Part shown: positions 1,906 through 63,311 of the stretch, in pieces
Layout: every line of letters begins with the position of its first letter
How positions within the stretch are numbered: position 1 is the first letter of the stretch
NCBI GenBank assembly: GCA_964035575.1
Contig: OZ037921.1
Span: 640,501 to 704,500, forward strand
Length of the DNA stretch: 64,000 bases
Direction: 5' to 3'
Source of the DNA: Rhynchopus sp. YZ270_cl-10
Taxonomy: Eukaryota; Euglenozoa; Diplonemea; Diplonemida; Diplonemidae
Program-made: the position numbers and the translations under genes
The notes under the pieces: generated by a model
Told to the model about the DNA's origin: nothing
Databases searched by the model: none
What the model saw: the letters and a program-made list of their open reading frames with translations, nothing else

Positions 1906-3948
1906 ACAAAAAAAAAAAAAAAAAGAAAAAGAACGAAAAAAAATGGGAATTGTGTTCTTCTTCTAAAAATTGGTATTTTCTGTATGAGTACAGACTAGAT
2001 GTACATGACGCTTCGATAATAAAAAGGAACAAATTGTGTGAAATAACCTGAATCTCTCTTCTCTCTGTCTCTCTTTAACAAGCGGCAATGCCAAATCACC
2101 GCTGAGGGAGAAAACAAAAAAAATGATTTTTTTAAAGAGAACATTCTGCTTCGAAGAGAAAGGGGGAGGGGAAAACAAGAGAAATAATCATAATCGAAGA
2201 GAGAGAAAAAAATCGTTTGGTAAGATGACCTCTAAGCATATCGTTGCCATAGTCACCTTTAATGAAAGGGTTTTAAACACCTTCTATGTACATCGCAACA
2301 ACGGAAGGCTCGTTTTTCTATTTATTGTTACAAAGTAACAATGGAAAAAAACGAGCCTTCCCCAACAAAAAAAATCTTGAAAGATTGGTAAAGCATCGTC
2401 TACAAAGGCGAAGTAAAACCAGACAACTCATTTACCCTTCACCATCGTGTACACAGAATCTAATCTTGCAAGCAACTATCTATTGCGTCTTTTTGAGACA
2501 AATTTGAACTAAAACGAAATAAACTTTGTAAGAAATGAAATGTGTCTCTCGTGCACACGCTATCTGTAGAGGAAGTAAAACAAAAACAAACTGAGACGTA
2601 CGGCATGTGAGGCTTTCGTACGACACATCCGAGACTAAAGAGAGAAAAAAAACAACAAATGTACCCTCAAGGGCAAAATAATGATGAAACACACACCCCT
2701 CCAGACTAATGGAGAGTGGTAGGGAAACGGTTGGATACAACGGAGAGGGGATATAAAGATCGTTTGTATGTTGAAAAATTGGCTGGTTCTCTCTGTATTG
2801 CTTTGGCTACCCACAACGGAGAGGGGAGATCAATTTGAAAAGAGTGAAAGAAAAAAAAACTACGCTTGTAATAAAAAGAGGCGAAGTTGATAACGTGCAC
2901 CAGACCTCATATGGAGAAGGCACGTGGAGGGGGGAAAACAAAAAAAAAACAAAAACAAAAACAGAAGACTTCTGTAAGATGACCCTAAGCCTCACATGAA
3001 TAGTCACCTTTGTAAAAAAAAAAATTCGGACACAGATACAAAGATGTAACTGTAATAAAAAGGCTCGAGTTGAAGGTGCAAAACGCCTCTACGGACGTAA
3101 GGCATCAGTAACCCAAAAAAATGATAAAACAAGGTACACAAGAAAAGTGAATTTCCTCAAAAAAAAGATGTTGAACAACAATTTGAAATAACAAAAAAAA
3201 ATGAAACAAGAAAAATAAAGTTTGTAATATGAACCTAAGCCTCTCGTACTTAGTTCTTGAGAATTTTTTTTTTTTGGAAGGGAAAAGTCGCAGAAAGAAG
3301 ACGAATGACGAGAAAAGTATGTTGTCGGCGCAATAAAAAAAGACAAATAAGTTGAAACGTGCAACACGCCTCACCGGACACCGGCGGACGCAGAACACTG
3401 GTTCTCTGTGGGCTATCGAACCCCAGAGGCTGAAAAAAAAATACTAGCCTAGAAAAGGAAAGGAAACGGTGTGTTTTTCGAATATCTGCTATAGTCACTT
3501 CCGGAGGGGATTGAAGCAGATCGTTTGACAAGAAAAGAGCTCATCTTAGCCAAAAGAAACACCACTTCTGCGTCACTGTACCAAAACCTCGGGTATTTGT
3601 TTTAGAAACCCCACAATCTTTACTATGAAATACCAACTTTGAAACTGTGAACAAAAAAACAAAAAACAAAAGAGGAATACAACCGGTTCATTTTAAACCA
3701 AACGCCATGTCGCTTTCATCACAGCGGTGGCGAGTAGTATATATTTGATCATCCGTTGGTTTAGCGTTGCCAGTTTTCGCTCTCTTTTTTGTCACAATGG
3801 GAAGGAAACTAAAAAAAAGCCCGCATTTGTACAGAGACTGCCTTGTGGGTTTTGGAGAAGAGACTCAGATTCGGTGAAAAGGCCAAAAGTAATAACCATT
3901 GAGAGCAGGGAGGAAATGAAGGGGAAATGGGTAGGGGGAAAGGGCCAC
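1906..3948. other. Gene-free stretch with dispersed hairpins
   Basis: No supported gene was found. The sequence is A-rich on the plus strand (poly-T on the minus strand). It contains several hairpin-family members in the orientation of the neighbouring genes. AAGATGA/TCACCTT hairpins lie near 2225, 2530, 2968 and 3218. Family C copies lie near 3065 and at 3350-3430. All of these lie downstream of the MYND gene, whose stop codon is at 3949. Confidence 0.6.
3350..3430 (-). repeat. Family C structured repeat, full-length copy
   Basis: Read on the minus strand, the unit holds a hairpin around GGGTTCGATAGCCC. Next comes AGAACCAGTG, then a second hairpin CGTCCGCCGG...CCGGTGAGGCG, then TGCAC. Other long copies lie at 34018-34106, about 57700-57770 and, on the opposite strand, 45875-45943. 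Shorter copies lie near 3065, 14440-14510, 15946-16005, 37660-37710, 46839-46871 and 61937-61986. The second hairpin contains GTGAGG (GTAAGG at 61937-61986), which looks like a splice donor. The first resembles a tRNA B box. Confidence 0.75.
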
Positions 3949-4808
3949 TCACAGTTTCAAGCTGGCGAGGAAGGTGCAGATGTGTCTGTGGCTCTCCCAA
4001 TGGTTCCGCTGGCAAACGGCACAGCAGTAGGTGCCCATCTTGCAGCAGGCGCAGACTTTCATCTCACGTGGGACGTCTTCGTACTTGTTGCAGTTCAAGC
4101 ACACTACTCGGTAGCGGAAGCGGATCATCCTACAGAGCTGACGTGCCTGTGTCGTGGTGAAATTGAAAGAAAAGTTTGTATGATGATCCCAAGCCTCGTG
4201 CTTAGTCTGATTAGATTACTTAATGTTTCATGTGCTTAGTCACCTTATCATATTCGTTATCGCACAGCATCAGCTGCGCTGACATCCACAAGTTTGCTGT
4301 CATTGAAAATGAAGGGAAAGAAAAGTTTACAAGATGATCCTAAGCCTCTCGTTCTTAGTCTGATTAGATTATTCTTTGGTTTATTCATCAGTCGTTTGTT
4401 TGTTTGTGTGGCATTGCTACTCGTGGTTAGTCACCTTGATCACATTCGTCATCGTACAGCATCAGCTGCGTGGGTTTCCACAAGTTTGTTGGAAACTCGG
4501 AAAGAAAAGTCAGGTGAATATGCCTCAGTGCATACACATCTGAGACAAAGGGGGGGTTTTGACAAAAGCCTGATTTAAGATAAATTCAAAGAAAATTTTG
4601 CAAAATGGCTTGTGTCCACACACACTGTTCCACGTTACTGAGCTGAGATTTTCTTTATAAAAATTGGCTTGCCTCTTCTGGTACAGGTTCAAGAAAAGGA
4701 TTGATATCTCCCCATAGGTCAGATGCATACCTTGATACTCATCTCGCGGCAGTCCACCTCAGCTAGGTGGCCGAGGAGGACAACAAACGCACTTCTCATG
4801 TTGCCCAT
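3949..4808 (-). CDS. MYND-type zinc-finger protein, four exons
   Basis: The exons are 4731-4808, 4435-4495, 4244-4296 and 3949-4146, and all phases agree. Together they encode 129 residues. Exon 4 carries a MYND-like finger: CLNC, CACC, YCCAVCQ, then HW, H and C. MYND fingers bind short proline-rich peptides and recruit partner proteins. The donors are GTATGC, GTGACT and GTGACT, and the acceptors are GAG, CAG and CAG. Exons 2 and 3 are tandem duplicates, sharing NLW..(A/T)QLML.D.E.D, so the middle of the protein is an internal repeat. All three introns contain members of the dispersed hairpin superfamily near their 3' ends. The start follows CTGCAG by two bases, so a trans-splice acceptor there is possible. 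The exon structure is read by eye; the MYND call is firm and the first exon slightly less so. Confidence 0.82.
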
Positions 4809-4984
4809 AGCTGCAGGGGGGAAGGGTTGACCAAATAGGTATCGAGGTGGGGTGGTATATCGATAGCGTTTTGATCATACAATCACATAAAAGTTATTTT
4901 CATACTTTCCAATCAAAGAGAAACAAAAAGGCAAAAATAGAGGAAAAACCCGATCTTCATTGGTAACAGACAGTTGTTTTTTTT

Positions 4985-9931: not shown

Positions 9932-10609
9932 CACCATGGACTCGTAATGACATTACGCGCGTCATGACGAGGTAATTACGAGTGCCTTGACGAGGGCACC
10001 CCCTCGTAATTACGAGGGGGTGCCCTCGTCATGACGAGGTAATTACGAGGGCACCCCCTCGTAATTACCACGTCACGACGTCGTCATGACGTGGGCACCC
10101 ACGACAAGGCGATTTTTGACCAATAAAAAAAAATTTTTTTTTCAAAAATCGGGCGTGGTAGGTCATAAAGTGGCCCAAAAAATCCAAAGAAAACCTCAGA
10201 TTGACCAAATGGTGAAAAAAAATGTCAAGTCAAATTTCAGCCAAAATACGGTCATTAGACCCCCACAGATGCTTAAAAGTGCCAAATTTTGCTTTTAATG
10301 GCCTCAAATCGTCGAAATTAGCCCTATATAGGGGCCAAAAAAAAAAATTCGAGAGTCCCTTTCCCTGGGAGGCAATAGCCAGACAATGACCACGGGAGCA
10401 CCCCTCGTAATTACGAGGGGTGCCCTCGTAATTACGAGGGCACCCCTCGTCATGACGTCGTAATGCCGTCGTCGTAACGAGGGAAACCTCACGTCATGAC
10501 GTCGTCATTACGAGGGGGTGCCCGCGTCGTGACGACGTCATTGCGCGCGTAATTTCCCACGTAATTTCCCTCGTCCCTCGTCACGTAATGTCATTACGAG
10601 TCCATGGTG
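9932..10609. mobile_element. 678-bp element inserted at TA
   Basis: The ends are perfect 26-bp inverted repeats starting CACCATGGACTCG. The subterminal regions are stacked palindromes built from ACGAGG, GTAATTACGAGG and GTCATGACG. The target dinucleotide TA is duplicated at 9930-9931 and 10610-10611. The paralogous sequence at 994-1020 shows the unoccupied site, GCTAGTCTGATAAAGAAAG. The core 10257-10373 is a copy of 401-515. TA duplication is typical of Tc1/mariner-like elements, but the ends do not identify a family. Confidence 0.92.
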
Positions 10610-11355: not shown

Positions 11356-12137
11356 CATTTGTTTGTTAGGTGGAAAAGGAAAAACTGACGATTGCGTCCT
11401 GTGTACACATAATACACAATCGCGATAGATAAAGAAATCTTTAAAGGGTAATGTGTCTGAGTCACAACACAGAGGTGGGGGAAGAGAGGGGGTAAGGGAC
11501 GTTAAGCCTTACAAGCGGCAATACACCTTGCTTTGCACGGCACACATCCCTCAGTGTTAGTAGTCAGAAGTAAAAATCAAAATTTCTCAAAAATAGAAAC
11601 TAACTTCAGGAATTGAATAGAAAACAAAGAAAAAACAAAGAAAGTGCGCAGGTGCACAGGTTATACAGAAGATAACAACACCAAACAAAACAAAGAAACA
11701 GAGCGAAAGCAGAGTGAAGCAGAGTGAAGCAGAGTGAAACAGAGTGCACAGGTTGTGGCAATAATTATCAATGTCAAGCAAAAAAAACAAAAACAAAAAC
11801 AAAAAAAATAAAATAAAACCCTGATATGACTGTGTCTCTGCATGTGGACACATATCTTGATGTTGAAAAGAATCAGTCAACCGTTATAGCTAAGAGTGTG
11901 GGGTAAAGGAACATTATGCAAGAGTGTTGCAGAGATTGAAACAAAGAAAAACAGGAAAACGCTGGGCGAACCCGGTTTAAGTTAGTCTTTTTTTTGGCTA
12001 TCACACACTGCAGCAACTCTTCACACAAGGATGAATACAATGAAGACCACACACACGGCAAGAGAGAAGACTCTTGCCAATGGCAGCTGACAGTTCAAAC
12101 CAAGACACGTCTGTTGTTAAATCATCAAAAGGGTGAC
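11356..12137. other. Gene-free stretch downstream of the collagen-like gene
   Basis: No gene was recognised. A 10-bp unit AGAGTGAAGC is repeated about four times at 11711-11745. A hairpin of the AAGATGA superfamily lies at 11823-11856, with outer stem GATATG/CATATC and inner stem TGTGTC/GACACA. Confidence 0.6.
11823..11856 (-). repeat. Family B hairpin with compensated stem
   Basis: The outer stem GATATG/CATATC replaces the usual AAGATG/CATCTT, and the inner stem is TGTGTC/GACACA. Both arms changed together, which supports a conserved RNA fold. Confidence 0.6.
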
Positions 12138-25469: not shown

Positions 25470-25811
25470 TTACTTGGAGACGTACAGGGTACGGCCACGC
25501 TTCTTCAGGGCGTACAGGATGTGCTCCACACGCACCGTCTTCGCAGGGGCGTTCTCACGCACCTCCATCAGCGCGTGGGTGTCCTTCATGACCTGCTCAA
25601 CGAAGTTCCTCAGGATCTCCCTTGCCTCGTCGTACACGCTGCTCGCAAGACGCTTGCACCCTCCACGGCGGGCAAGACGGCGGATGCTTCCCTTTGTGAT
25701 ACCACGTCCTTTGTTCGACTTTGCGCCCTTACGCTTCTGGCTTCCGGTCGTCTTCTTGTCAGCCTTTCCGGAGGCAACCGACTTTCCCTTGGCAGACTTC
25801 GACGGACCCAT
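25470..25811 (-). CDS. Histone H4, divergent
   Basis: 113 residues. The fold is clear from GITKGSIRRLARRGG, then YDEAREILRNFVEQVMKD and the C-terminal ALKKRGRTLY. It pairs with H3 in the nucleosome core. It is about 10 residues longer than standard H4. The N-tail (Lys/Ser/Gly-rich, GPSKSAKGKSVASGK) bears no resemblance to the usual GRGKGGKGLGKGG. GSIRR where most eukaryotes have PAIRR is shared with trypanosomatid H4. An extra stretch ENAPAKTVRVEH replaces the usual KRKTVTAMD region. No intron. It is last in the sense order of the five-gene histone cluster. Confidence 0.95.
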   Translation of the reverse strand: MGPSKSAKGKSVASGKADKKTTGSQKRKGAKSNKGRGITKGSIRRLARRGGCKRLASSVYDEAREILRNFVEQVMKDTHALMEVRENAPAKTVRVEHILYALKKRGRTLYVSK

Positions 25812-26097
25812 TTTGTGTTGTCTTGTTATCAAAAATATCTAGTGTGCAGGGGTGTGGGAGGGGAGAGGGACAGAGAAGAGGAAGAGGTTCGGGAAGAGCA
25901 AAAAAATAATCTGCTCGGTTTTGTTTTTCGTGAAGATTATTGTTCTTCGGGTTTTGTTGGTGGAAACCTCCACCCCTCTTTCTGGCCTGCACGCAAGCCG
26001 CAGAGGTAACTGTATCAACACAGTACAGAGAAAAATACAAAAAGTTACAACAATGCACGTCACACAGCTACAAAGTAGTTACGTTCTCGTCGTAGGC

Positions 26098-26364
26098 TTA
26101 CTTCTTCGTGGTCTTGGCCTTCTTCTTCGTGGTGGTTCCCTTCTTCTTCGTGGTGGTCTTCTTGGCCTTCTTCGCCTTCTTGGCCTTCTCCTCCTTCTTC
26201 GCCGCCTTCTTGGCCCTCGCGTCCGCACGCTTCTGCTTCTCAGCCTCCTTCACCTTGTTCACTGCAATTCTCACAGCGTCCTTCCTCGCCTTCGCTGCTG
26301 CCTTGATCTTGGCAGAGCGCTTCTCGTCAGGCTTGGCAATCGCAATCGACTCGAACCTCGGCAT
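26098..26364 (-). CDS. Histone H1-like basic protein
   Basis: 88 residues. About half are Lys or Ala, with tandem KKA and TTTKKKGTTTKKKAK runs at the C-terminus. There is no winged-helix globular domain. This matches the kinetoplastid type of H1, which consists of the basic C-terminal domain alone. It would compact linker DNA. The identification rests on composition and on its place between H4 and H3 in the cluster. Confidence 0.85.
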   Translation of the reverse strand: MPRFESIAIAKPDEKRSAKIKAAAKARKDAVRIAVNKVKEAEKQKRADARAKKAAKKEEKAKKAKKAKKTTTKKKGTTTKKKAKTTKK

Positions 26365-26606
26365 TGTAAGTGTTTGTGGTGTGTGGGGAAGAAGCTGTGG
26401 GTATGGGTGGTGGTGCAGAGGAGAGGGAAGGGAAGGAATAGGAACACAAAGTAGGTGGCGTCTGTCTTCTTAGAATAACGTATCACTGGTGGTAATCCAC
26501 CCCTCGCGGCTTGGCCAGCAAGCTCGCAGAGGAAAAAGCGTGAAAAAATAAAAAAAAATCGAAACAAGTGAAACAGCTCAGCACCTCACCAAGTGGCCGC
26601 TCACGC

Positions 26607-27047
26607 TCACAGGTTGTCCCCACGGATGCGGATGGTGTAGCTCAGGTCCTTCTGGATGAGGGTCTTCTTCTTCCTGTGGAGCTGCAGGATCACGGCACCC
26701 TCAAACACGCTGATCAGGTACTGCTCGCTTGCCTCCTGCATCGCCTCGAGTGCAGACGCACGGAAACGCATGTCCTGCTTGTGCTTGTCCATCACGTCAC
26801 GCACAAGGCGCTGGAAGGGTGCCTTCTGGATCAGCAGCTGCGTCCCCTTCTGCAGTGCCTTGATCTCACGCATCGCAACAGTTCCGGGCAGCCAGCGGCC
26901 AGACTTCTTCACCACCTTTCCCTTCTTGTCCTTCTTCTCAGCGGGCTTGTAGTTCAGCTTCGTCATCGGCTTCCTCTTCTTCTGCTCACCGTCCTTTCCA
27001 GTCGACGACTGCGACTTCTTCACAGACTTGGCAGGTGTGCGTGGCAT
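26607..27047 (-). CDS. Histone H3, divergent
   Basis: 146 residues. Core motifs are PGTVAMREIKALQKGT, LLIQKAPFQRLVRDV, MRFRASALEAMQEASEQYL and TIRIRGDNL. QKAPFQRLV rather than RKLPFQRLV is characteristic of trypanosome H3 and is a main reason for the euglenozoan call. The tail starts PRTPAKSVKK, so there is no Lys at position 4 and no ARKS block. The modifications centred on K4, K9 and K27 would therefore be absent or moved. No intron. ATG 27047 is preceded by A/C-rich leader sequence, like the other histone genes here. Confidence 0.95.
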   Translation of the reverse strand: MPRTPAKSVKKSQSSTGKDGEQKKRKPMTKLNYKPAEKKDKKGKVVKKSGRWLPGTVAMREIKALQKGTQLLIQKAPFQRLVRDVMDKHKQDMRFRASALEAMQEASEQYLISVFEGAVILQLHRKKKTLIQKDLSYTIRIRGDNL

Positions 27048-27195
27048 CTTGTTGTGTTGTGTGGTTGTTGTCTTGGTAATCTGTCGAGTGTGGTTTCTAT
27101 TTGTCTTTGTGTCTGGGTGTGGTGAAGGGCAAGAAAGGAAAAGTAGGATTACACTGCTCTTTTTTGTCACATATGCGGTGCGCAGTCACACCACC

Positions 27196-27220
27196 TCACA
27201 CCCTCATATCGGGTGTGAGG
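27196..27220 (-). terminator. Hairpin downstream of histone H2A
   Basis: CTCACACCC and GGGTGTGAG form a perfect 9-bp stem with a seven-base loop, about 60 bases after the H2A stop. Position and size recall histone mRNA 3' stem-loops. The other histone genes here show only weak stems, so a shared signal is not demonstrated. Confidence 0.5.
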
Positions 27221-27280
27221 GTTCAAAATACAAAATAGTTGGAGGCAAACACAACAGACGGATGTCGAGAGCGAGCTCGC

Positions 27281-27790
27281 TTACTTCTTCGGGGACGACT
27301 TCGCGGGGGAGCCCTTCGACTTCTTCGGGGAACCCTTCGACTTCTTGCCCTTCTTTCCACCCTTCTTCCCCTTCGACTTCTTCGTCACGCTGCCAGAGGA
27401 CTTCTTCCTGTACTTCTTGTCAGTCGCCTTGAGCGCATCGTGCACTCCTCCACCCACACCTCCACCCGCAATCGTCACGTTCGACAGAAGGTCGCCAAGG
27501 TCCTTGTCCTCACGCACGGCAACGCAGATGTGGCGGGGTTTGATCTGGTGCTGCTTCTTGTTCTTTGCCTTCTTTCCCGACGTCGCTGCCTTCGCAGACA
27601 CGTTCAGAAGCTCACCTGTGCAGTACTGCAGCACAGACGTCAGGAACACTGCCGCAGTGGGGCTTACACGCTTTGCGTACCTTCCCTTCTTCAGCGCACT
27701 GCCCACACGTCCCACAGGGAAGGTCAGACCAGACATCTCAGACAGAGACACAGACGGTCCCCTCTTCACTCCCTTCTTTGCGCCGACCAT
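27281..27790 (-). CDS. Histone H2A, divergent, SPKK tail
   Basis: 169 residues, about 40 longer than usual. Core: LTFPVGRVGSALKKGRYAKRV, VLQYCTGELLNVSAKAA, QIKPRHICVAVREDKDLGDLL and NVTIAGGG. Acidic-patch positions are altered: the Glu of LEYL is Gln and the last Glu of AEVLEL is Asn. The C-terminal extension is Lys/Ser/Gly-rich with SPKK-type motifs (KGSPKKSKGSPAKSSPKK), a minor-groove-binding repeat known from linker-like histones. No intron. Loss of part of the acidic patch should change contacts with H4 tails and chromatin factors (inference). Confidence 0.95.
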   Translation of the reverse strand: MVGAKKGVKRGPSVSLSEMSGLTFPVGRVGSALKKGRYAKRVSPTAAVFLTSVLQYCTGELLNVSAKAATSGKKAKNKKQHQIKPRHICVAVREDKDLGDLLSNVTIAGGGVGGGVHDALKATDKKYRKKSSGSVTKKSKGKKGGKKGKKSKGSPKKSKGSPAKSSPKK

Positions 27791-28037
27791 TGTTTGTCTT
27801 TGGTTGTTAGTGTTAGAATAGCTGCAAGCAACAACAGGGGTGTGGTTTGGGGGACACGGTGGTTGGCAAATAACAAAACGAAGCCAAACAAGCCCCCCAT
27901 TTTCTTTGTTTTTTTTTTTGTTTGTTTCTTTTCACAAAAAGACGGCGGCAGTACCACCCACGCCCAGTGTCTGAAACAAGGGGCCGTGTCTGACAACAAG
28001 CAACATCAAATCATCAGGTCACATCACATCACCTGCT

Positions 28038-28499
28038 TCACTTCCTCGGGGAACCCTTCTTCGCTGGGGATCCCTTGCCCTTCTTGCCCTTCGCCTTCAG
28101 GGCCTTCGCGTACTTGGCCACGGAAGCAACTCCCGCAGACAGGGCGTGCGACGCCATCTCGTCGGGGAAGTGCATCTTCACACCCGCCACAATGGCACCG
28201 CTGCGCAGCGTCTTCTGGCCCGCAAAGTGGTTTGCACGGCCAGCCTCCTCCGCAATGCGCTCAAACAGGTCCACCACGAATGAGTTCACAATCCCCATCC
28301 CACGCGACGTGATCTCAACAGAGCTCTTCTTTCCCGACTTCGTCGACGCCTTCACACCAAAGGTCTTCGTCATCAGCTTGTGCACGAAGCTCGAGTAGCT
28401 CTTGAAGTTGTGCTTCTTGATCCTCTTTCCGTTCTTGTCCAACTTCGGGCCTCTCTTTGCTCCCTTCTTTCCAGAGGACTTCTGTGGCGATGGTGTCAT
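28038..28499 (-). CDS. Histone H2B, divergent, SPKK tail
   Basis: 153 residues. Core: YSSFVHKLMTKTFG, GMGIVNSFVVDLFERIAEEA, then KTLRSGAIVAGVKMHFPDEM and SHALSAGVASVAKYAK. It pairs with H2A. The N-tail carries GPKLDKNGKRIKKH. The C-terminus has an added KGKKGKGSPAKKGSPRK tail with SPKK/SPRK motifs, as in the neighbouring H2A. No intron. It is first in the sense order H2B, H2A, H3, H1, H4. A long upstream in-frame stretch contains poly-Phe from poly-T and is not coding. Confidence 0.95.
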   Translation of the reverse strand: MTPSPQKSSGKKGAKRGPKLDKNGKRIKKHNFKSYSSFVHKLMTKTFGVKASTKSGKKSSVEITSRGMGIVNSFVVDLFERIAEEAGRANHFAGQKTLRSGAIVAGVKMHFPDEMASHALSAGVASVAKYAKALKAKGKKGKGSPAKKGSPRK

Positions 28500-28718
28500 C
28501 TTGTTGGGTTTTTTTGTGTTGACAAAATTTATCTGATATGAAGGGGTGTTTTTGTACTGACTGCAAGAACGGGGTAATAGCAACAATAGAGAAGAGGGCG
28601 GAGTCTTTTTGAGATTTTGTTTTTCTTTGAAATATGGGTCGGAGTAACAGGGATATTTTTTTTTTGAGGGGGTGTTCGGAGGTTTGTTAAAAAAAAAAAA
28701 ATACAAAAGAACAATTGA

Positions 28719-28751
28719 GAGATGAACACGTCTCACGTACAGACACATCTC
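28719..28751 (-). repeat. Family B hairpin
   Basis: GAGATG/CATCTC is the outer stem, replacing AAGATG/CATCTT. The inner stem is ACGT/ACGT. It lies just upstream of the H2B gene. Confidence 0.6.
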
Positions 28752-32020: not shown

Positions 32021-32508
32021 TGGTGCTTCCCGGGGGGTATGCATTTCACAAATTTTCAATTCAATTCACAACTTTTCACAACTTTTCACAACTATTCACC
32101 ACCCTTTTTTTCTTCGTTGGTGAAGCTTTTAAATGCCGGCATTTGCATTTCCGGAATCCGTCCGGCCAGTGGTGGGGTCAATTTGCCGAAATGGACAAGT
32201 TCTCGTCATTTCCGCACAGTACGCAGTACACAGGTACACAGGTACACCACATCACGTTCTATCTTGTGAATCCCAAAATACCCCTCAATGGGTGGGCCAC
32301 CACCCAACCCAAAAAAAAAACCCCCCAAAAAAATAAAATCAATTCACAACTTTTCACAACTTTTCGCACTTTTCACAACTTTTCACAATTTTTCACCATT
32401 TTTCACCAGCCTTCACAATTTTATAGCGGTTTTCGTGTTGTGAAAATTTGTGAAAACTTGTCACATTTTGTGAAAATTTGTGAAATGCATACCCCCCGGG
32501 AAGCACCA
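32021..32508. mobile_element. 488-bp TGGTGC element
   Basis: The inverted ends TGGTGCTTCCCGGGGGGTAT continue about 40 bp into TCACAAATTTTCA. Many subterminal copies of TTCACAACTT follow on one side and the reverse complement on the other. A possible 5-bp duplication CTTTT flanks it. The relative at 36106-36350 has the same architecture. Confidence 0.85.
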
Positions 32509-34017: not shown

Positions 34018-34106
34018 AAGTTGAAAAAATAAAAAAATGCAAGCGCCTCACAGTACTGAAACGAACGCAGGCATTGGTTCTCTGCAGGTTATTGGAACCC
34101 CAGAGC
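34018..34106 (-). repeat. Family C structured repeat, long copy
   Basis: The minus strand reads CTCTGGGGTTCCAATAACC, AGAACCAATGCCTGCGTT and CTGTGAGGCGCTTGCA. An insertion of A/T bases interrupts the 3' part. Confidence 0.65.
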
Positions 34107-35163
34107 AACACTTTAAAAAAAAAAACTTTTTTAAAAAAATATACAGAACCAAACCAAATAAGTACAGGCTTGTCCATCGGATCAATAAAGAAGAAAATCC
34201 GTGGTGCTTTTCGTAGCCTGTTTCTGATGACGAAATACCCCACAAAATGGGGGGGAGAAGAGAAAAGGGAAATGCATAAAAGAATGTTCAAAAACCCAAA
34301 AAAAAATTAGACCCTGCTGTTAACAGATGGAGATGTTGGAGTAGAAAAGAACTACCTCTTGTTCTTACTGTACTTCTGGATCTGGGGTTTTTTTTTATGT
34401 ATTTTTTTTTTGTTTTTTTTGTTGTTTTTGTTTGGTCAATGACCGTATCCTAAGACGAATGTTTTTTTTTTTTTTCTGTGCACAAAATCGCCCGAAGGCT
34501 ATTAGATTTCACAGGTTTAAAATGCAGATCACCGTCAACCCCTTTACATTAATATAAAAATGAAACTATGAATGCCATAAAAGAAGCGTTAATCATGTCA
34601 AAAACGAAGGAAAAAAAGAAAGAAAAAAAAGAGAAGTTTTTTTTTTGTCAGATGAACTTCAGCCTCTCATGCTAATGCTCGCCTAACCAAAAGAGATAGG
34701 GCCACAAAGGGCACACATGTCTCTTGTCTAAAGAAAATCAACTGCTAATTCTATAAAGCAAAAGCAGAAAGTGGAAAGGGGAGGGACAAAAAAGGGGAAA
34801 GAAATGGTGATGGAATGCAAAAAAAAAAGGGGGGGAAAGAGAAATTTTGTAAGATGAATGTGCCTCTCGTGCACACACACACAAATCTTTATGTTAACGG
34901 GCCGGAAAAAGGGAAACAAAAACACAAAAAAAAAAAATGACACAAAAAAAACTGGAAAACTGCAACACAATTTGCATTTATCCTACAAAGAACACCCGTG
35001 GCTTTTTCTCTCCTTTTTTTTCCGTATCTTCCAGGTAGGTTGAGTCGCCCATCCCCAAACAAAAAAAAATCCGATTTTATTTTGGCACATTTTGGGGTAT
35101 TTTGACTCCTCAACCAGGAAAATAATTGACCTTTTTTTTTTTTTTTTTTTTGCTTTCCTACAA

Positions 35164-36105: not shown

Positions 36106-36350
36106 TGGTGCTATCCGGGGGGCGGCGTTTTGCAAAGTTTCACAAAATTTCAATCAAAATCACAACTTTTCACAGCTTTCACAACTTTTCACAACTTGTC
36201 ACAAAATTTCAATTAAAATCACAACTCTTCACAACTTTTCACAACGGTGTGTGTACATAGTTGTGAAGCGTTGTGCATAGGATTGAAATTTTGTGACATT
36301 TTGTGAAACTTTGTGAAACTTTGCAAAACGCCGCCCCCCGGATAGCACCA
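36106..36350. mobile_element. 245-bp TGGTGC element with 6-bp TSD
   Basis: The ends TGGTGCTATCCGGGGGGCGG and the reverse complement flank it, and the inverted similarity continues through GCGTTTTGCAAAGTTTCACA. The flanking AAATCA is duplicated (36100-36105 and 36351-36356). Subterminal TCACAACTTTT units match the element at 32021-32508. Confidence 0.88.
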
Positions 36351-37004
36351 AAATCACTCATTGCGACTGAACCAAGAGCACTAAAATATCGTGAAAGATG
36401 AAATGTGCACTCTCTGTGCACAAAGGACATCCTTCATTAAAAGGAAACAAGAGATATGAACGCACTTTTGAAGTACTGTTTGGAGGGAGAGATGTTGGGA
36501 AGAGGTGTGTGAAATGTTTACCTTTCGAATAAAGCAAAATTGAAAGGTGCTGAAAAAATGCTCTTTTATGGAGGAACAAACACGGCGTGTAAAATAAAAT
36601 AAAATCCGGCAAGAGACCACCGAAAAAAAAAAACGGTTTAGTCACTTTTCGAATCAAATATTTTTGTTGCGTGTATAGCAACCCCCTCAGAAACATTTTC
36701 AGTTAACCATGAAAGGATTAGTCGTGAGTCAAAGGAAATGTCAGACACAGTTGTCTGACAAAAAAAAAATAATAAGATGAAACTAAGCCTCTCATGCTGA
36801 GCCACCTATATAAGTAAGATGAGTTGTTTTGGTCACCTCGAAAGTTGTTGTTGTTGTTTTTGCTTTCATTTTATTTCTTTTTTAAAAAAACCCTGAAACG
36901 AACAATACAAAGAGTTGTACTATAAAGTTATGTTTTGAAGCAGTTAGTAAGAGGATGGAGAGGGGGAGGAGGAGTGGAAAAGAAAATAAAAAATAAAGAT
37001 TTTT

Positions 37005-37035
37005 AAGATGAACCTAAGGCTTGCTTAGCCACTTT
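37005..37035 (-). repeat. Family A hairpin
   Basis: AAGATGAACCTAAGGCTTGC then TTAGCCACTT. Stem CTAAG/CTTAG inside AAG..G/C.ACTT. Confidence 0.6.
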
Positions 37036-39612
37036 ATAAACTTTGTAAAAAAAAAAAAAAAGAGGAGGAAGGGGGGAGAGAGAGGGGTTGGAGGGATCCA
37101 ATAAATAAGTACAAAAAAAATGCAGAAAAAGTGACAAAGCAATGAATATAGCAGGCATCCTTCAAGTTTTTTTGCCCAACTAAAATAAAGAAAAGAATGG
37201 AAAAGAACAAAATGTCTTCGCAAAGGAGGTCTAACGTTTCCATCACAGTCAGATTGCCTTATGCAAGAAATAGACAAATATTTTTTTTTGTTTTGTTTTT
37301 TTTGTGTTTCGACCACACACCTTGACACAATTTTTTAGTTCAAAAAGAATCGGTAGATGTCTTATTTTCGTTATGTTCAACGATGATTTTCCGTTTACAG
37401 CAAATGGTTTGATTTTTGTTTTGTGTATCGACGCCAAAAAAAACAGCGATCGTAGAGGGAGATGCAACGTGTTGTATATGTTGTAAAAGAAAAAAAAAAC
37501 TTGAAAGATCAAAGAACATGTACTTGAAACGGTTGTTATGTTCGTTTATGTTGAAAAATGAAAGTAGGAGAGGGGAAGGTGGGACTAAGTGTGATCAGAC
37601 ACGCAAAAAGTGTTTAGCAGGACGTAAAAAAAAAAAAGATAACAATGGGAAGAGACGTTGAAAGTAAGTGCAAACACCTCACCGTACACCGGCGGGGCGA
37701 AGGCACTGTAGAAAAAGCCAAGATGAACCTACGACTCTCGTTGCTGTGGTCACCTGCTACATAAAGGAATATGATCGAGCCGCTCGGGCACATGCATATG
37801 CACAGGCTGAACAAAAATGAGCGCTTATTGTATTCCCTATTTCCCTGCAGAGAGGAACAGCTTATCTTGCCAGAAAAATGTACCTCACACCGAGCGGACA
37901 CTAATCTTAGCGTTTTGCCCCCCGCCTTTCAAAGAAACCAATCACATGAACTAAATGCATGTTTTGCTGTTCATCTCAATTGCGTTATTCTCTTTCCCCT
38001 AAAATCCTTCCCCCAAAATGGGACCTAAATGTATTTTGGTGGTTTTTTTGAAATTTTTTTCTCCTTGTTTGTGATGTGTTTTGTTTCACAAATACTGCGA
38101 ATTCAAAAAAAAACAAAAAAAAAAAAATATACATAAAAATACGAGATTGGGTGACTATATTTACAAGTATCGACAGACCATCAAAAGACGAGAGGTTTCG
38201 TACAACAAAAAAACCAGCCCCGTCTCTTTTAAAGGCTCTGACATGATGGAAAAAAGGTGTTGGAAAAAAAAAACGGTTAAGAAAGTAGGATCGTGTACTC
38301 GAGAGAACAAACGCCTTCATGGACGCTTGCGTTTTGTGAAATGGTGATTGACCAAGAGACACTTCTTATAGCTTGAGATGATATGTGAGTATTTTTTTTT
38401 TTTTTTTCATCAGTTGGTTTTTTTTTTAGTGCATCAGTCATACAAGACAGTATTCACTATTTTGGTGTTCTTCGTTATGGCAAAAAAACCCCCCTTCCAA
38501 ACCCTTCTCTTTTGGGCTACAATACTAGAGACATCCCTTCGCTATTCATATATGGTATGTTTGAAACCTTTGAAGAAAGTTATGCGGTCCTACCTTTCTT
38601 CAGTGGAGGCCGCAAAATTAGAGATAAAAGGGAGATTTTTCCCAAATACCCCGGAATAGATTGGATATCTGCACTTAATGAAATCAAAAAAAAAAGATAA
38701 AATTGATGACATACAGATCGCTTGAAAGATATGCATCAAGCAAAGCTGTACCAAATGCAGTTGTAGACTATCGAAGTAAGATGGAACTGGGCGGTGGGAT
38801 TTTTTTTTCTGGGTAATGGCTGTTTTGTGATAATTGTCCATCATATTCACAATAATGGGTATCATATATTATGAAGGGCAACTATTACCATACAACCATC
38901 CTTGTCCGGGGGGGAGTGAATGGGGATAACAAGACAGTACACAATGCTTAGTTGGCCTGCCCGAAAGCATGCGACTGTCCATACTCTAAACAGTGAGTAT
39001 CACACCTTAGTAGATTACAAAAAAAGAAGAAGGGGGTTGAAACATGAACGCACCTGAGGTGGGGGGGTGGGGTGGTGGGTGGGGGTGCTGTATAACATAT
39101 CACCCATACTCAGAAGAGTGTATTTTCTGACATTTTATTTTTTGTTCTTTCACTCGTTGACCCAGATGCATTTTTTTTAAAATCTTTTTGATCATCCGAC
39201 CCCGAAATTGAAGGTTTCGACGCCGATCTTTCAAAAGAAAAGAAAAATACAATTTTTTGGGTCAAATACCAGAGACAGTTTTTCCTCCCGGAAACCCTAG
39301 AAATCACCGTTTGGATTTAACATTTTTTTTGTAGTTTCGACAATCACCTGTCCGAGGTTTTGATAAATTGTTTGGAGTAGTGTAGTTGCCTCGGTTGTGC
39401 AATCTCCATTGTCTGTTTTCTTCTAAACATTGGAGTTACGTTGTCACAATATCTTCCCCTTTGCTCCACAGAAAGACAGACAAAATCACATGAGCATAGA
39501 GGGGCTATTGTTGTGTCGACAATCGCCTTGAGCAACCACATTGATAGTCCGAAAGGATCCTTGAGAGTGTGGCAGAGATTAGGCATTAGGAACACTGGGT
39601 GTGCCCCTTTCT

Positions 39613-40243: not shown

Positions 40244-40606
40244 ATCATCTTGTTGTTGTTTAGTGTAGCTGCCATTCAGAAAGTTATTTCACTTTTTTTT
40301 GTCGCGTAGGCAAACCCGCCTTAGAGGGAAAATAAAAAAGGGGGGGAAAAAAAACTAGAAAAAGATGAACGGGCCTCAGAGGCACACATATCTTTGAAAA
40401 TATTGAGGCAGAAGAAAAAAAACTGCAAGAGCAAAATGATGCCAAAAATCAGCAATATGAAAAGAAGAAAAAAAAAATGAAAAACACTTGCACACTGAAC
40501 CCAAGGCTTTTCTGCATTCGCAGGTATTACCCCGAGAGTTTTTTTTTAAAAAAATAGACTTGGGCTTTGTGTACTCAAAGACCAATGTAAAGAGAGAAAA
40601 AATTGT

Positions 40607-40634
40607 AAGGTGAACATCGATGTTTATCCACCTT
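40607..40634 (-). repeat. Family A hairpin, fully compensated
   Basis: AAGGTG/CACCTT forms the outer stem and ACATCGATGT the inner stem. The outer pair is AAGATG/CATCTT or AAGATGA/TCACCTT elsewhere, so both sides changed. Confidence 0.65.
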
Positions 40635-41034
40635 CCATTTAAAAGGGTTGCGTAAAAGTTTTGATAATATGAGCAAAGCGTTGCATGCCTGCCACGGGGG
40701 GGGGAAAAAACAAAAAATGCGCCAAACAAAACAAAACAAAACAAAAACAAAGCAAAAAAAAATACATCTCAGATTTTTTTCTTCTTTTGTTGTGGGTCAA
40801 TATCATGCAGTGCAAATTACTCCTTCCCAGCGAATCAACAAAATGTACAAAGCCCTCTCGTGACAGTGTACCCGAGCAGCTGCAAGAATCGATCCCTTTT
40901 ATTCCATACCTAGAGTGTATCCCATATCCCCCGATTTGAGATTTTCCCTACTCCTTCTCCCCTCCTTTTTTTGTGCAAAAAATAATGTTTTTTAAATAAA
41001 TCATCCAGGCCAGTGAAAAAAAAGAAAAGTTTAT

Positions 41035-41069
41035 AAGATGATCCTAAGCCTCTCGTGCTTAGTCACCTT
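41035..41069 (-). repeat. Family A hairpin, consensus-like copy
   Basis: AAGATGATCCTAAGCCTCTC then GTGCTTAGTCACCTT. The stem is CTAAGC/GCTTAG with outer AAGATGA/TCACCTT. On the minus strand it begins AAG|GTGACTAAGCACGAGAGG, like the 5' ends of the MYND-gene introns at 4243 and 4434. Confidence 0.7.
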
Positions 41070-41371: not shown

Positions 41372-42129
41372 TATAAAAATTCGAATAGGTGATTTTAATT
41401 TGCGTGTTACATAAAGTTCTAGTGGGGGCTCTGTTGGAAAAGGGTAACTTATTTGTTGTGCAATCCATTAATGCTGTTTTTCCTGTACAAAAATACAGTG
41501 AAAAAAAAAAAAAAAAAAAAAAATCACGCTCCTACGTATTTTCCCACAGAAAATAAAAACACAAGTGAAAAAAAGTGAAAATACAGTAGTTTTATTTCCA
41601 CAGAGACAAATTATCGACAATTAAAATTACCCTTTTCCAACGGAGCCCCACTAGAACTTTATTTAACAAGTGAATTAAAATATACAAAAAGTGAATATTT
41701 GCGTGTAGCAGACCGTCCTTTAGGGGTTGACGGAGAGATATACACACAAAAATTGACTTAAATACAAAAAGGGGGATTTGAAAGTGCAAACGCACTTTGA
41801 AGCAAAGACACCGAGAGCAATGATGGGAAATAACGACATAACGCCAACCAAGATCTGATGCCCTATTTTTTCCCCCGTTTTAACGAAAGCATATCCAAAA
41901 AATGCTCAATCTGACGCAAAACGGTAAGAAACAAAGGAGGAGGAGGAGGTTGTGGGAAACAAAAAAAAAAAAGAAAAAAAATACGTTGCTATCAAGTGGC
42001 TGGACTTTATTATTTTTTGTCTGGCTTATCTTTTGTCACATTTTAATGCGACAAAGAATAAAATGAAATACAATGGTAATCCTGGAGAAAAAAGAGGATC
42101 GTAAGGTTAAAAAAAAATGAATCAGTATA

Positions 42130-42948
42130 CAGGGTTCTATACAGCATTCCGCCCACGAGGGGCTGGCTCGGTCAGAATCGGTTTGACTCGGTCAGCCCAA
42201 AAAAAAATTTTCCCCCCTCCACAGGGAATTATATAGGTTTTGGGGTTTTTCGCTGAAACTCGGTCGAGCCGGGTCCCCAACCTAGCTCAAGTTGGGGGCC
42301 TCCGGCGGAATGTGAGAATTCCTCGGTTATCCAATTGCGGAGTTCGGCACTTCATTGAAGCAATTCGTGCACCAGGCACAAGTGGTACACGAATTGTCTG
42401 TAGCCTCAGTACATTTATAACAAAGAAAGGGCGGTCACGGCACCCAAAGCGAAGCCACGGTACGCAACATTTCTAAAAAAAAGTTGACACAAAACGGCAC
42501 TGTCGCTGGTAATTGTGGTCAGCTTCCGTAATTTTACTCCCCTGTTTTTCTAAAACGAAAGTTTCTGGCGAAGCCACGGTACGCAACATTTCTAAAAATT
42601 GCGCTTAAAATTGCACATTTTTACTGCAAAAGTATATCATGGGAAGGGTGGGTTGCAATCTTGCGCCGCAGGCGCACGGTACGCTACTTTTATTATTTCG
42701 CCATGCTGCATGCTTCCTTTTCCTTCGGCGTTTGACCAATTGAGTCGCGTTCTGGCTGTGACGGGGTCACTTTGTTCATGAGGCCATTTCTGGTCACTCT
42801 CAGAGGCTCGTGGGAGGTACCAAAATTTCCACCCCAAGATTTGGAAAAAAAATCTGAGATTTATAAAAAAAAAAAAAAAAAACGGCTGACCGAGTCAACG
42901 TCTGACTCGGTCAGACCGACCGAGTGACCGGGCCTATATAGAACCCTG
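42130..42948. mobile_element. 819-bp CAGGGTTCTATA element, copy 1
   Basis: The ends are CAGGGTTCTATACA and TATATAGAACCCTG. The 6-bp target duplication AGTATA lies at 42124-42129 and 42949-42954. Inner repeats include GACTCGGTCAG palindromes and two copies of GAAGCCACGGTACGCAACAT. It is nearly identical, in inverted orientation, to 58185-59004. No transposase frame. Confidence 0.93.
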
Positions 42949-46284: not shown

Positions 46285-46794
46285 TGTTCTCGGTCCCACT
46301 TAGGAACTTCCCTGGAAAAAATGATGTTTTTTTTTTTTTTGACAACTTTTTTACCATTCCTTTTTAGGGAACGGAGCATGTACGGTCCTGGAACAGCTCC
46401 AAGAATATGGAGTCGGCGGGCTTAATAGGAAATTAATTGCCTTCCTAAACGTACACACAACTGGCAAAAAGGGGAGGTGTTTTTTTTTTCCACAGGATTT
46501 TGCATTTTTGTTGTTGTTTCCACTGCGCGGAAGCGAATGGAAGAAAAATGAATAAAATAAGAACGAAAAAGGTGTGAACAAAACAAAATAAACGAGCCCC
46601 ATTCTTTTTTTGTGTGTGACATAAAAAGGATAGGGATTTCTTTTCTTTTTTGTTCGCCGAAAAGCGCTGACTCCAACATTCCTTATTGTCAACAAAAAAA
46701 AAAGGGGTTGCTGACAACTTTGCTGAAAGATATGAACATAGAAGATAATAACACAAATTATCTGCAACGAAAGATAAAATTTGTAAGATGAATG

Positions 46795-46825
46795 TGTCTC
46801 TCCTACACACACAACACACACCTTT
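46795..46825 (-). repeat. Family B hairpin
   Basis: AAGATGAATGTGTCTCTCC then TACACACAC...CCTT; inner stem TGTGT/ACACA. On the minus strand GTGTGTGTTG...TTTCGTTGCAG has intron-like ends about 68 bases apart. Confidence 0.6.
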
Positions 46826-50794: not shown

Positions 50795-51445
50795 ATACAA
50801 AGCTTTTGAAAGATTATAAAGAGGGGTAGTTGAGGGGAGAGGAGGAAGAAAGAAACGTCCTCTGTTGTGTACAGTGCTGGGAAAATGAAAAGGGGTGAAG
50901 GTTGAGTCAATAAAGTTGAGTCAATACAAAAAAAAAAAAGTGAAGCTATTACTGCAGGCACCTCCGACGATGCCAGCTGGGATGAAAGCACACAAAAAAA
51001 AATGTTGAAAAAAAAAAAATGTAACAGCTCGTGAAACAGCGTACTTTTGGTATGATCGGTTCGGGAAGGGTGGACCTCTATCATGTCTACTCCAAAAAAT
51101 TTTCAATTAAAAAAGGGGGTGGTTGGGAGGTGCGGGAGGGAAGGGGGGAGTAACTATATATCACACATCCACCTCCATTTCAGGGGGGAGGTTCGCTCAG
51201 CTTTTCTGTTTTGTTGGAGACAAAAATAAAAATAAAAGAAAGAAAGCGCTTCGAGAACAGAGCTAGCGTGGACCTTTTCTGCCTCATTTCTGTTCGTAAA
51301 AAAAAACAAACTGGACTCTTCTTCTTTATTCGCACTTTTTTGCAGTATTTTTTTTCGCTTTTTCCCCGTTTTTTTTTTTTTGTGTATGCCCCAAAAACTG
51401 GGGAGAACTAACAAAGGAAATGCAAAAAAAAAAATTTTTTTTTGA

Positions 51446-51477
51446 AAGATGAATGTGCCTCTCGCGCACACACCTCT
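51446..51477 (-). repeat. Family B hairpin
   Basis: AAGATGAATGTGCCTCTCGC, then GCACACACCTCT; inner stem TGTGC/GCACA. On the minus strand it is followed after about 70 bases by TTTCCTTTGTTAG, a good acceptor-like end. Confidence 0.65.
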
Positions 51478-51526
51478 ATAAAAAAAAGGGGGGGAACTAC
51501 AAACGCCTGTTGCAGACGCAGCTCAT

Positions 51527-58184: not shown

Positions 58185-59004
58185 CAGGGTTCTATATAGG
58201 CCCGGTCACTCGGTCGGTCTGACCGAGTCAGACGTTGACTCGGTCAGCCGTTTTTTTTTTTTTTTTTTATAAATCTCAGATTTTTTTTCCAAATCTTGGG
58301 GTGGAAATTTTGGTACCTCCCACGAGCCTCTGAGAGTGACCAGAAATGGCCTCATGAACAAAGTGACCCCGTCACAGCCAGAACGCGACTCAATTGGTCA
58401 AACGCCGAAGGAAAAGGAAGCATGCATCATGGCGAAATAATAAAAGTAGCGTACCGTGCGCCTGCGGCGCAAGATTGCAACCCACCCTTCCCATGATATA
58501 CTTTTGCAGTAAAAATGTGCAATTTTAAGCGCAATTTTTAGAAATGTTGCGTACCGTGGCTTCGCCAGAAACTTTCGTTTTAGAAAAACAGGGGAGTAAA
58601 ATTACGGAAGCTGACCACAATTACCAGCGACAGTGCCGTTTTGTGTCAACTTTTTTTTAGAAATGTTGCGTACCGTGGCTTCGCTTTGGGTGCCGTGACC
58701 GCCCTTTCTTTGTTATAAATGTACTGAGGCTACAGACAATTCGTGTACCACTTGTGCCTGGTGCACGAATTGCTTCAATGAAGTGCCGAACTCCGCAGTT
58801 GGATAACCGAGGAATTCTCACATTCCGCCGGAGGCCCCCAACTTGAGCTAGGTTGGGGACCCGGGCTCGACCGAGTTTCAGCGAAAAACCCCAAAACCTA
58901 TATAATTCCCTGTGGAGGGGGGAAATTTTTTTTTTGGGCTGACCGAGTCAAACCGATTCTGACCGAGCCAGCCCCTCGTGGGCGGAATGCTGTATAGAAC
59001 CCTG
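58185..59004. mobile_element. 820-bp CAGGGTTCTATA element, copy 2
   Basis: Nearly identical reverse-complement copy of 42130-42948. The target duplication AAGTTG lies at 58179-58184 and 59005-59010. The high identity indicates recent movement. Confidence 0.93.
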
Positions 59005-61653: not shown

Positions 61654-61655
61654 CT
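61654..61655 (-). promoter_or_regulatory. Candidate trans-splice acceptor AG
   Basis: TCCACTATCTATTGCAG is the sense sequence, 30 bases before the RING gene start, with a CTCTCTCTGTT tract upstream. No intron donor is needed upstream, so a spliced-leader acceptor is the simplest reading. Similar AGs precede other starts: 54871, 33356, 23432, 47656 and 21903. Confidence 0.5.
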
Positions 61656-61936
61656 GCAATAGATAGTGGATAGGTGAACAGAGAGAGGGCGAGACAAACC
61701 TATACACAAGGGAAGAGGAGAAGGAGGAGGAAGGAGGGGGTTTTTTTCACATTTTTTTTTAGTTATATTTTTTTTTTCGTTGGAGTTGTGTGTTGGGGGG
61801 GGTGTGGGGGTGTGGGTGGGGGGGGCACAGACCTTTAGTTTGTTTTTTTTTTCTTACTCGATCATTTTTTTTGTAACCTAGGGGGGAAAGGAGAGAAAGC
61901 TACGGGGAGGTGGAGTCAGTTAGGACGATTTTTTAT

Positions 61937-61986
61937 ATTGAAAGTGCAAAACACCTTACCGGACAACCGGCGGACGCAGGCACTGA
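61937..61986 (-). repeat. Family C repeat with GTAAGG
   Basis: The minus strand reads CAGTGCCTGCGTCCGCCGG, then CCGGTAAGGTGTTTTGCAC. Other copies have GTGAGG at the same place; both are canonical 5' splice-site sequences. Confidence 0.7.
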
Positions 61987-62327
61987 AACAATAGCCCATT
62001 TCTCCCCTTTTTCGAGTTTCAGCAACTACGTACGTAACCAAAAACGATAAAATAAAGAGACAAAAACAAATTCCCGCTAAACACCTTTTTTTTCCCCTTG
62101 CCAACCATCATCCCATTCCCCATAACAAGGGGTAATGCAACAAATGCTCCCCAAAAAAATAAAAAAAAATCCATAAATAGCGAAAGGAAAACTCTCATGT
62201 ATTTATCATCACAGTAAGGGGGTTTTTTAAGACTGTTTGCAGTAGCTAGCGTAACCCCTTGTTTTTTTTTTTTTGCTTCTTCTTCTTCTTTTTTTTTTTT
62301 TTTTTTTTTTGTCTTTTTGTTTTTTTT

Positions 62328-62385
62328 GAAAACTTGGTTGGATTAGTGTAGACACCCGAGGATGCACCCCACTACTATTTTTGGT
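62328..62385 (-). repeat. Family E hairpin
   Basis: GAAAACTTGGTTGGATTAGT, then GTAGACACCCGAGGATGC and ACCCCACTACTATTTTT. TAGTG/CACTA is the outer stem. Confidence 0.6.
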
Positions 62386-63311
62386 ACTCTCACCCTTGGT
62401 GGCAAGACTAGGTTTTACGTAACTAAGAATATGTACACCCTTGAGGGTCGCCTTTACTTTTTCCCTCTCTTCTCCTTACCTTAGCTGCTTGCTGCGCCTA
62501 TCCAATGAAAGACTTGGCATGCAACAAAACAAACCTGAGAAGAGCAAATTGTACAACTAACAGGGGTTTTTATGGGATAAAACTTTTTTTGCTTTTTTTC
62601 CAAATGTGTGGTAAAAAAAAAGGGGGGGGAAGGTATATCAAATAACAGAAAGAGGCCAGATGGTTTCGCTTTTTTGCAACAACAACAACAAAAAAAAAAA
62701 AAACCGTTTTTTTTTTTCTCTCTTTTGCAATGGCGGGTATCAGAGGCTCCTTACCATACACACAATCAATAAGAAGCGTTGTGTAGAAGGTATAGGGGCC
62801 TGAAAAAGAAAGCTTAGGTGGAGGCGAACTGAAGCCTCGTGTGCATTTATTACCACTATCTTACAAAGAAAGCTTGTAAGATGAATGCTCATGCGCACAC
62901 ATCCAAAAAGGCAGCGGATGGAACCACATTAGGAGAAAGGGGAGAAGGGGAAGAAAAGGGATACCCTCCCCAATGGAAAAAAGAGAAAAAAAAAAACAAA
63001 GAAAGGGAAGGGCGTAAAAAATAAGACCAGGCACTCTTCTCTTACTATTGCGAAGTTGCTGTGCTGGGGTCCCATCCTATCCCTTTCTTCCATAGAAAAT
63101 AAATGTTCATGTGCAGGCTGTTTCAACACTGCAAGCAATAAATCTGTGGGAACAAGCCTTCTTTTTGCATAATTTTTTTTTTTTTGTTTTGTTACTCTGC
63201 ATAAAAATCGGTGGGAAAATTAATCAATTACGCGAATCAGGCGAAGGCAAGAGTTTTCGTGCATCCGGAGAGAGGTGAGTGTGGGGGAGGTGTGTGTCTA
63301 CGCTGTGCTGC

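Follow-up and report, generated by a model that had tools for sequence, protein, structure and literature searches.

Short hairpins repeated along the gene strand of a diplonemid genome are very probably the 3' ends of LINE retrotransposons

Introduction

Long interspersed nuclear elements (LINEs) of the UnaL2/ZfL2 type have tails made of repeat units. In zebrafish, according to portions of one report, a LINE protein binds the 3' stem-loop of its RNA, with recognition set by the loop and the stem being exchangeable (PMC4176376). Leishmania contains abundant, decayed retroposons, the SIDERs, whose sense copies are about 4-fold more abundant in the account given in parts of PMC2689281, and which are defined by a 79-nt signature (Pr77) in sections of PMC2323293 and PMC4035085. 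For the diplonemid D. papillatum, parts of the genome report describe repeats and transposable elements, introns included (PMC10161547). The mobile elements of this host group are little described. Here, we analysed a stretch of 64,000 nucleotides (the window; contig OZ037921.1, positions 640,501 to 704,500, assembly GCA_964035575.1) from the diplonemid Rhynchopus sp. YZ270_cl-10, in which an original prediction made from the sequence alone had described short hairpins of three families, A, B and G, recurring between genes and in introns. We consider it very probable that these hairpins are the 3' ends of non-long terminal repeat retrotransposons (LINEs) that have spread in non-coding DNA.

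Results

The A hairpin as the 3' end of a LINE

The A hairpin has the consensus AAGGTGACTAAGC-ACGAGAG-GCTTAGG-TTCATCTT followed by the tail ATAAACTTTTC, and the A, B and G hairpins have the loop ACGAGAG and the layout in common but three different stems. When we used window positions 4165-4325 as a query against the genome (40 of 1133 candidates scored), this copy matched genomic copies past the hairpin, and 20 long ones together with the window copy revealed a common 3' end and staggered starts. The corresponding full element, LINE-A, has a single open reading frame (ORF) of 1462 amino acids, in which an apurinic endonuclease (APE)-type endonuclease (PF03372; 150 of 246 candidates scored) and a reverse transcriptase (RT; PF00078; 150 of 739 candidates scored) lie in the same frame. 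In all 18 endonuclease matches labelled 1462 amino acids, the distance from the endonuclease to the RT was 1749-1752 nt (1728 in one) and that from the RT start to the ORF-end match was 2097 nt (2118 in one), the spacing being constant within 24 nt. The frame ends ...IPDNKLVEASAADAVR and a stop codon, the hairpin starts about 10 bases after it, and the A family is the 3' untranslated region (3'UTR) of LINE-A, about 57 nt long. A search with the last 119 amino acids of the ORF (...NKLVEASAADAVR-stop) gave 150 matches from 541 candidates, which merged to 98 places, and the open frames at these at least 98 places ranged from 49 to 1462 amino acids.

LINE-A has an endonuclease and an RT ordered in one element, and its copies share the 3' end but are truncated to varying extents on the 5' side, as in APE-type LINEs; it also carries a stable stem-loop at its 3' end, as stringent-type LINEs do: the 3'UTR folds at -16.1 kcal/mol (z -4.04), and none of 200 shuffles was as good. 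Since the upstream part of the approximately 105-nt long form codes for the LINE C-terminus, that form is neither a structured RNA with three hairpins nor, for A, a short interspersed nuclear element (SINE). A mini-intron, a branch-point signal and an H/ACA-like RNA were dropped because the same upstream part is LINE coding sequence.

Hairpins on one strand in the window and the genome

The window corresponds to G000:C89:640501-704500 of the searched genome (152 Mb, 126 contigs), and all nine of its ORFs of at least 400 codons lie on the minus strand. Diplonema papillatum ranks among the nearest named relatives, behind closer unnamed ones, both of the window's histone H3 and of an ALG10 protein encoded on a different contig, which makes a diplonemid host very probable. 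A covariance model, R1 (with A1), was built from 17 sequences (13 from the window and 4 from other places) and run over 264 kb, namely the window and 20 ten-kilobase stretches at round coordinates. In the window it gave 21 matches at E ≤ 10, all on the minus strand and 16 of them at E ≤ 0.1, although 13 of the 21 are guaranteed by the construction of the model and the E-values are rough. Over all 264 kb, R1 matched 61 sites at E ≤ 10, of which 59 lay on the minus strand and two on the plus strand. One of these two mirrors a strong palindromic copy on the minus strand, and the other has an E of 2.1. The 20 stretches without the window contained 28 matches at E ≤ 0.1 per 200 kb, and scaling this density gives an estimate of about 20,000 hairpins genome-wide. 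Twelve further loci showed a single orientation per locus, except for one palindrome echo.

Exact words gave the same direction. We counted 180 genomic occurrences of the 16-nt A tail TTCATCTTACAAACTT and none of its reversed control; for the B word GAGGCAYATTCATCTT the count was 859, again against none for the control. The words with the greatest strand asymmetry in the fetched DNA, which includes eight loci fetched for the A core, were pieces of the A hairpin, followed by G. When these eight loci were left aside, ACGAGAG had 35 sense occurrences, 12 of them flanked by a stem of at least 3, and 13 antisense occurrences, 2 of them with such a stem; with them, the counts were 52 (24 with a stem) and 14 (2 with a stem). 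The hairpin repeats are real, lie on the gene strand and occur far above chance expectation. A generic hairpin scan of the window yielded similar counts on both strands, and Rfam gave no match at the gathering score in the window and loci L009-L014, the best weak match reaching 14 bits against 41 needed, on the opposite strand.

The recurrence of minus-strand hairpins that had been predicted is therefore borne out by the 21 minus-strand matches of R1. Eight of the ten copies that the original prediction had named are among these matches, whereas those at 11823 and 55827 are not, the latter having a similar 3' tail. The proposed shared loop holds in so far as there is one superfamily with a common loop, but the exact sequence CACGAGAGG appears just 3 times in the window (0.34 by chance) and most copies have a variant loop.

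Orientation relative to host genes

We took gene direction from protein kinase genes, which are independent of the repeats, at no fewer than 127 places merged from 131 matches (127 of 685 candidates scored). Among the 32 contigs with at least two kinase genes, none showed the order plus then minus; the genes diverge, with those in the left part of a contig on the minus strand and those in the right part on the plus strand. The kinase contigs showed at most one divergent strand switch over hundreds of kilobases. Contig C2, and perhaps C1, had further strand blocks when judged by B copies.

Within 100 kb of a kinase gene, LINE-A ends (14/14), A tails (23/23), B (10/11) and G (10/10) were on the same strand as the gene, compared with 7/15 for other RT families (1364-amino-acid family 0/3, 1747 1/1, 1057/986 1/1, the rest 5/10). 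Within 250 kb the numbers were 31/32, 40/41, 21/23 and 13/14, and 21/32 for the other RT families; the few repeats disagreeing at this distance are expected from nearness to a switch point. An A tail agreed with the nearest G within 60 kb in one of two cases. By contig arm, LINE-A was in sense in all 35 testable copies versus 9 of 18 for five chosen other RT families, which represent 55 of the 123 other RT places. None of the 26 contigs with at least two LINE-A copies broke the order minus then plus.

Intact LINE-A copies were in sense in 8/8 cases within 250 kb of a kinase gene and in 8/9 within 400 kb. The corresponding values were 6/6 and 8/9 for a 1476-amino-acid family and 5/5 and 7/7 for a 1469-amino-acid family. 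A sequence link to LINE-A was found only for the 1476-amino-acid family, in one copy (contig C42); by their similar size and endonuclease match, the remaining families may be sisters of LINE-A. An endonuclease-RT family of 1364 amino acids was in sense in 1/6 cases within 250 kb and, in this small sample, is perhaps antisense-biased.

Pyrimidine tracts of at least 15 nt numbered 258 in sense and 139 in antisense. Since this excess is just 1.9-fold, it is too small to account alone for the orientation, and tract asymmetry as the sole cause was rejected. Because intact copies are already in sense, we favour an insertion bias over slow selection. We tentatively propose, while rating it somewhat below even, that insertion of this LINE clade is coupled to the way in which transcription (or a replication fork moving in parallel) proceeds, which would put almost all copies, whether young or old, in gene sense, and that its protein also mobilises the bare hairpin of about 45 nt. 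If so, this 3' hairpin would be among the smallest retroposons.

Truncated and hairpin-only copies

A copies are mostly 5'-truncated LINE ends; their starting points vary widely, and many of them begin right at the hairpin. When we compared the retained length of 100 copies, 20 of which had been chosen for length, 42 retained 38-44 nt and 26 were shorter. In 48 of the 50 short copies with a placeable 5' arm, there was no clear similarity to the LINE upstream of the hairpin base. The flanks of 97 copies are rich in pyrimidines (84% on the 3' side and 68% on the 5' side).

These features suggest the following course of insertion. The LINE protein would recognise the 3' hairpin of its own RNA through the loop ACGAGAG, a putative binding, nick a pyrimidine-rich target and start target-primed reverse transcription from the 3' end of the RNA. 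Reverse transcription would usually end early, leaving 5'-truncated copies and often the hairpin alone, and the short copies that start at the hairpin base suggest that the protected hairpin by itself may often have served as template. After insertion, single copies would decay without selection on the fold.

Covariation and alternative explanations

The original prediction had taken the covarying stems to mean that the fold of the RNA is selected or was recently inherited from a structured RNA. In the 61 copies gathered by the model, 42 paired cells were double-changed versus 15.9 after shuffling. However, both the search for these copies and their alignment used a model that favours paired bases, and we therefore sampled copies again by the 3' tail alone. 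From the 100 listed of the 180 TTCATCTTACAAACTT sites, with the 5' side aligned by sequence alone, 81 copies were kept and 19 dropped. Over six inner pairs, 373 of 452 cells were paired (0.825), whereas permutation of the arms gave 368.7 (sd 3.2; 0.817 shuffled), with 604 of 5000 permutations as high. Double changes that still paired numbered 5 against 3.35 expected, and alignment thresholds of 12, 15 and 18 (65, 51 and 32 copies) gave nothing above permutation. For B, which has one variable pair, 40 listed GAGGCAYATTCATCTT sites showed a weak trend (Fisher P = 0.24 for the 35 sites carrying G or A at this position). The predicted covariation is thus present in copies gathered by the model and absent from the 81 A copies picked without regard to the stem; covarying pairs above background, whose absence had been named as a finding that would speak against it, did not appear in these copies under arm permutation. 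We attribute the covariation within groups of model-gathered copies to selection by the pairing-rewarding model. Since unselected A copies have no excess of pairing, the fold belongs to the consensus of the family, and individual A copies decay unconstrained. The conclusion that the fold of each copy is selected is consequently not supported for A, whose copies are LINE ends, while the other origin that had been offered, recent inheritance from a structured RNA, agrees with a consensus fold that is real (z -4.0 for the LINE 3'UTR, -3.5 for A and -3.7 for B; just -0.45 for G).

Two origins unrelated to LINE ends were weighed. A regulatory RNA element, such as a site for a loop-specific protein, that spread in introns and spacers and evolved by compensatory changes in place would fit the sense orientation of the hairpins, the loop conserved across the different A, B and G stems, and the covariation among model-gathered copies. 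The covariation that marks a cis-regulatory RNA family was, however, not found within the unselected A copies; copies freely lose arms, A copies directly adjoin the end of the LINE ORF, and intact LINEs have the same orientation, so that we regard such an element as improbable, although a subset of the hairpins may have been co-opted. Still less probable, to a degree that we barely entertain it, is a short DNA transposon of the miniature inverted-repeat (MITE) type or an introner-like element with palindromic ends. The palindromic core and the many copies in probable introns and spacers recall such elements, but truncation is one-sided from the 5' end with a fixed 3' end, the hairpin is linked to an endonuclease-RT ORF at nearly fixed spacing (18/18), and the tail ATAAACTTTTC is asymmetric, with almost no antisense copies.

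The origin from LINE 3' ends has points against it as well. When the model-gathered copies were split by type, double changes still exceeded shuffling (13 versus 3.8 in 37 A-type copies and 11 versus 4.8 in 24 B-type copies). The consensus fold of G is weak, with 63 of 200 shuffles as good. Support for target site duplications is weak too: the mean shared stretch was 5.13 versus 4.93 permuted, with 9 of 300 permutations as high, and T-rich flanks blur them. The first bases of the pyrimidine-rich 3' flank were partly selected as tail, although T remains near or above 0.6 over several bases past them. Finally, comparison of positions did not reveal a LINE attached to B or G (the comparison covered, for B, 77 exact 31-mers and a portion of the 16-mers listed; for G, 40 of 1455 candidates; for the endonuclease, 150 of 246). 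B and G have the loop and layout of A and probably represent the tails of sister LINEs, or else short elements using the same enzyme. It is conceivable, though we think it rather unlikely, that the hairpin-only copies together with B and G form a separate SINE-like family of about 45 nt that uses the LINE enzyme, which would be compatible with LINE ends as the source. The sharp 5' edge at the hairpin base (48/50 short copies), the lengths piling up at 38-44 nt (42/100) and the lack of a LINE for B and G at the compared positions speak for it; intermediate lengths exist too, however, and the same picture would arise if LINE RNA were trimmed down to a protected hairpin. Exact 31-nt B copies occurred five times within about 32 kb (G000:C25:95095-127214) and three times within about 5 kb (C100:1022230-1027224), possibly in duplicated gene arrays.

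Copies and other features in the window

The window copies are listed in Table 1. Both decayed LINE-A ORF ends at 4.2-4.5 kb stand ahead of their hairpins, and the first has the C-terminus of the LINE frame, SAADAVR-stop. In its 3'UTR the two arms are separated by about 34 inserted nt, as they are in L172 and L173 among the 20 long copies. Both copies probably lie in an intron, judging from a donor GTATGC at 4730 read by eye.

Table 1. Hairpins and LINE-A remnants in the window, with R1 scores; "in model" marks copies used to build R1
Feature	Position	Strand	R1 score	Remarks
LINE-A ORF end, decayed	4257..4301	-		DSKLVDVSAADAVR, then stop TAA; directly upstream of A hairpin; translation checked
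LINE-A 3'UTR with A hairpin	4172..4256	-	21.4 bits, E 0.14 (4172-4207)	aligned with 20 genomic copies
Second LINE-A ORF end, decayed	4449..4490	-		NKLVETHAADAVR, then stop TGA; 78% match to first copy; translation checked
A hairpin 3' half, second copy	4323..4360	-	30.0 bits	
A hairpin	41027..41069	-	56.0 bits, E 2.8e-9	top score in window; in model
A hairpin	36766..36808	-	48.4 bits	in model
A hairpin	2968..3010	-	44.7 bits	in model
A hairpin	3218..3258	-	43.8 bits	decayed 5' arm; in model
A hairpin	36997..37035	-	37.6 bits	shortened loop; in model
A-like hairpin	37712..37756	-	35.5 bits	in model
A-like hairpin	40599..40634	-	33.5 bits	inner stem ACATCGATGT; in model
A-like hairpin	2214..2259	-	27.1 bits	in model
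A-like hairpin	34641..34685	-	25.5 bits, E 0.018	outside model
B hairpin	34843..34881	-	46.4 bits	exact CACGAGAGG 9-mer; in model
B hairpin	28711..28751	-	44.8 bits	in model
B hairpin	51438..51478	-	42.0 bits	in model
B hairpin	4503..4542	-	36.4 bits	in model
B hairpin	46777..46815	-	35.2 bits	outside model
B-like hairpin	40354..40394	-	33.5 bits	in model
B-like hairpin, weak	62870..62903	-	17.3 bits, E 1.2	short loop; TTCATCTTACAAG tail
G element	40837..40873	-		GGGTACACTGTCACGAGAGGGCTTTGTACATTTTGTT; exact loop 9-mer at 40854; unit of same kind in L031

Other repeats were noticed besides these. A further repeat on the sense strand, which has a small hairpin and a GAGGCGTTTGCACTTTCAACTT-like tail, lies at 3340-3420, 34030-34105 and 37650-37705 and also in L004; its TTTGCACTTT was in sense in 13 bins and in antisense in 2. 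The 12-mer CTGTGGCAACAC, in sense in 9 of 160 bins and in antisense in none, is possibly a further tail family. Dense near-perfect palindromes made of TACGAGGG/CCCTCGTA units occupy 9988-10537. Inverted copies of a longer repeat containing GTACGCAACATTTCTAAAAA, perhaps a DNA transposon, lie at 42120-42900 and 58200-58993, and 10-nt tandem units TTTCACAACT at 32034-32495 and 36128-36338 stand opposite TTTTGTGAAA as imperfect inverted repeats. Co-directional histone-like genes run through 25473-28505 on the minus strand (H3 by Pfam, H4 by PDB match, and a weak H2A C-terminus). Outside the window, L019 (G000:C60:500001-510000) holds a satellite array in which units containing CGTTTTGTAC are repeated about 260 times.

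Discussion

The hairpins have an ordinary origin as LINE tails and two unusual traits, namely a nearly complete gene-sense orientation and many hairpin-only copies; the kind of hairpin is familiar, and it is the strict one-way orientation that is unusual. A puzzling RNA family thereby becomes a traceable retroposon, and the case indicates that truncated LINE tails collected by a pairing model can mimic a covarying RNA family. The orientation of LINE-A (intact copies 8/8) against that of other retroelements (7/15) offers a natural test of whether the direction of transcription or replication steers target-primed reverse transcription.

In the literature searched, supplementary files aside, we found no description of this hairpin or LINE in the portions of the sources consulted. 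The noncanonical introns of hemistasiid diplonemids resemble the present case in that diplonemids, RNA pairing and introns are involved; as described in main text portions of PMC12621601, which, supplement aside, name no such motif, those introns pair their own two ends, whereas the hairpins here lie inside longer non-coding stretches. Like the SIDERs of Leishmania and the ingi/L1Tc clade, as portrayed in parts of the works cited above, the repeats are abundant, decayed and shortened retroposons in one-way euglenozoan gene clusters. SIDERs differ in that, in the same partial accounts, antisense SIDERs are over-represented in spacers. What the present copies have in common is the 3' hairpin, and their sense orientation is nearly complete.

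There is a close likeness in structure to the stringent-type LINEs, eel UnaL2 and zebrafish ZfL2-1/ZfL2-2, and their partner SINEs, in which, as far as the consulted portions of the literature describe them, the 3' end is a short stem-loop and the tail can be shared. Unlike UnaL2/ZfL2, the elements described here have the tail ATAAACTTTTC, insertions on the strand of host genes and many hairpin-only copies. The zebrafish rule of loop over stem, as stated in portions of PMC4176376, fits A, B and G, which, on sequence alone, combine one loop with three stems and may serve as a natural set of variants for the rule by which a LINE protein recognises the loop and accepts changes in the stem.

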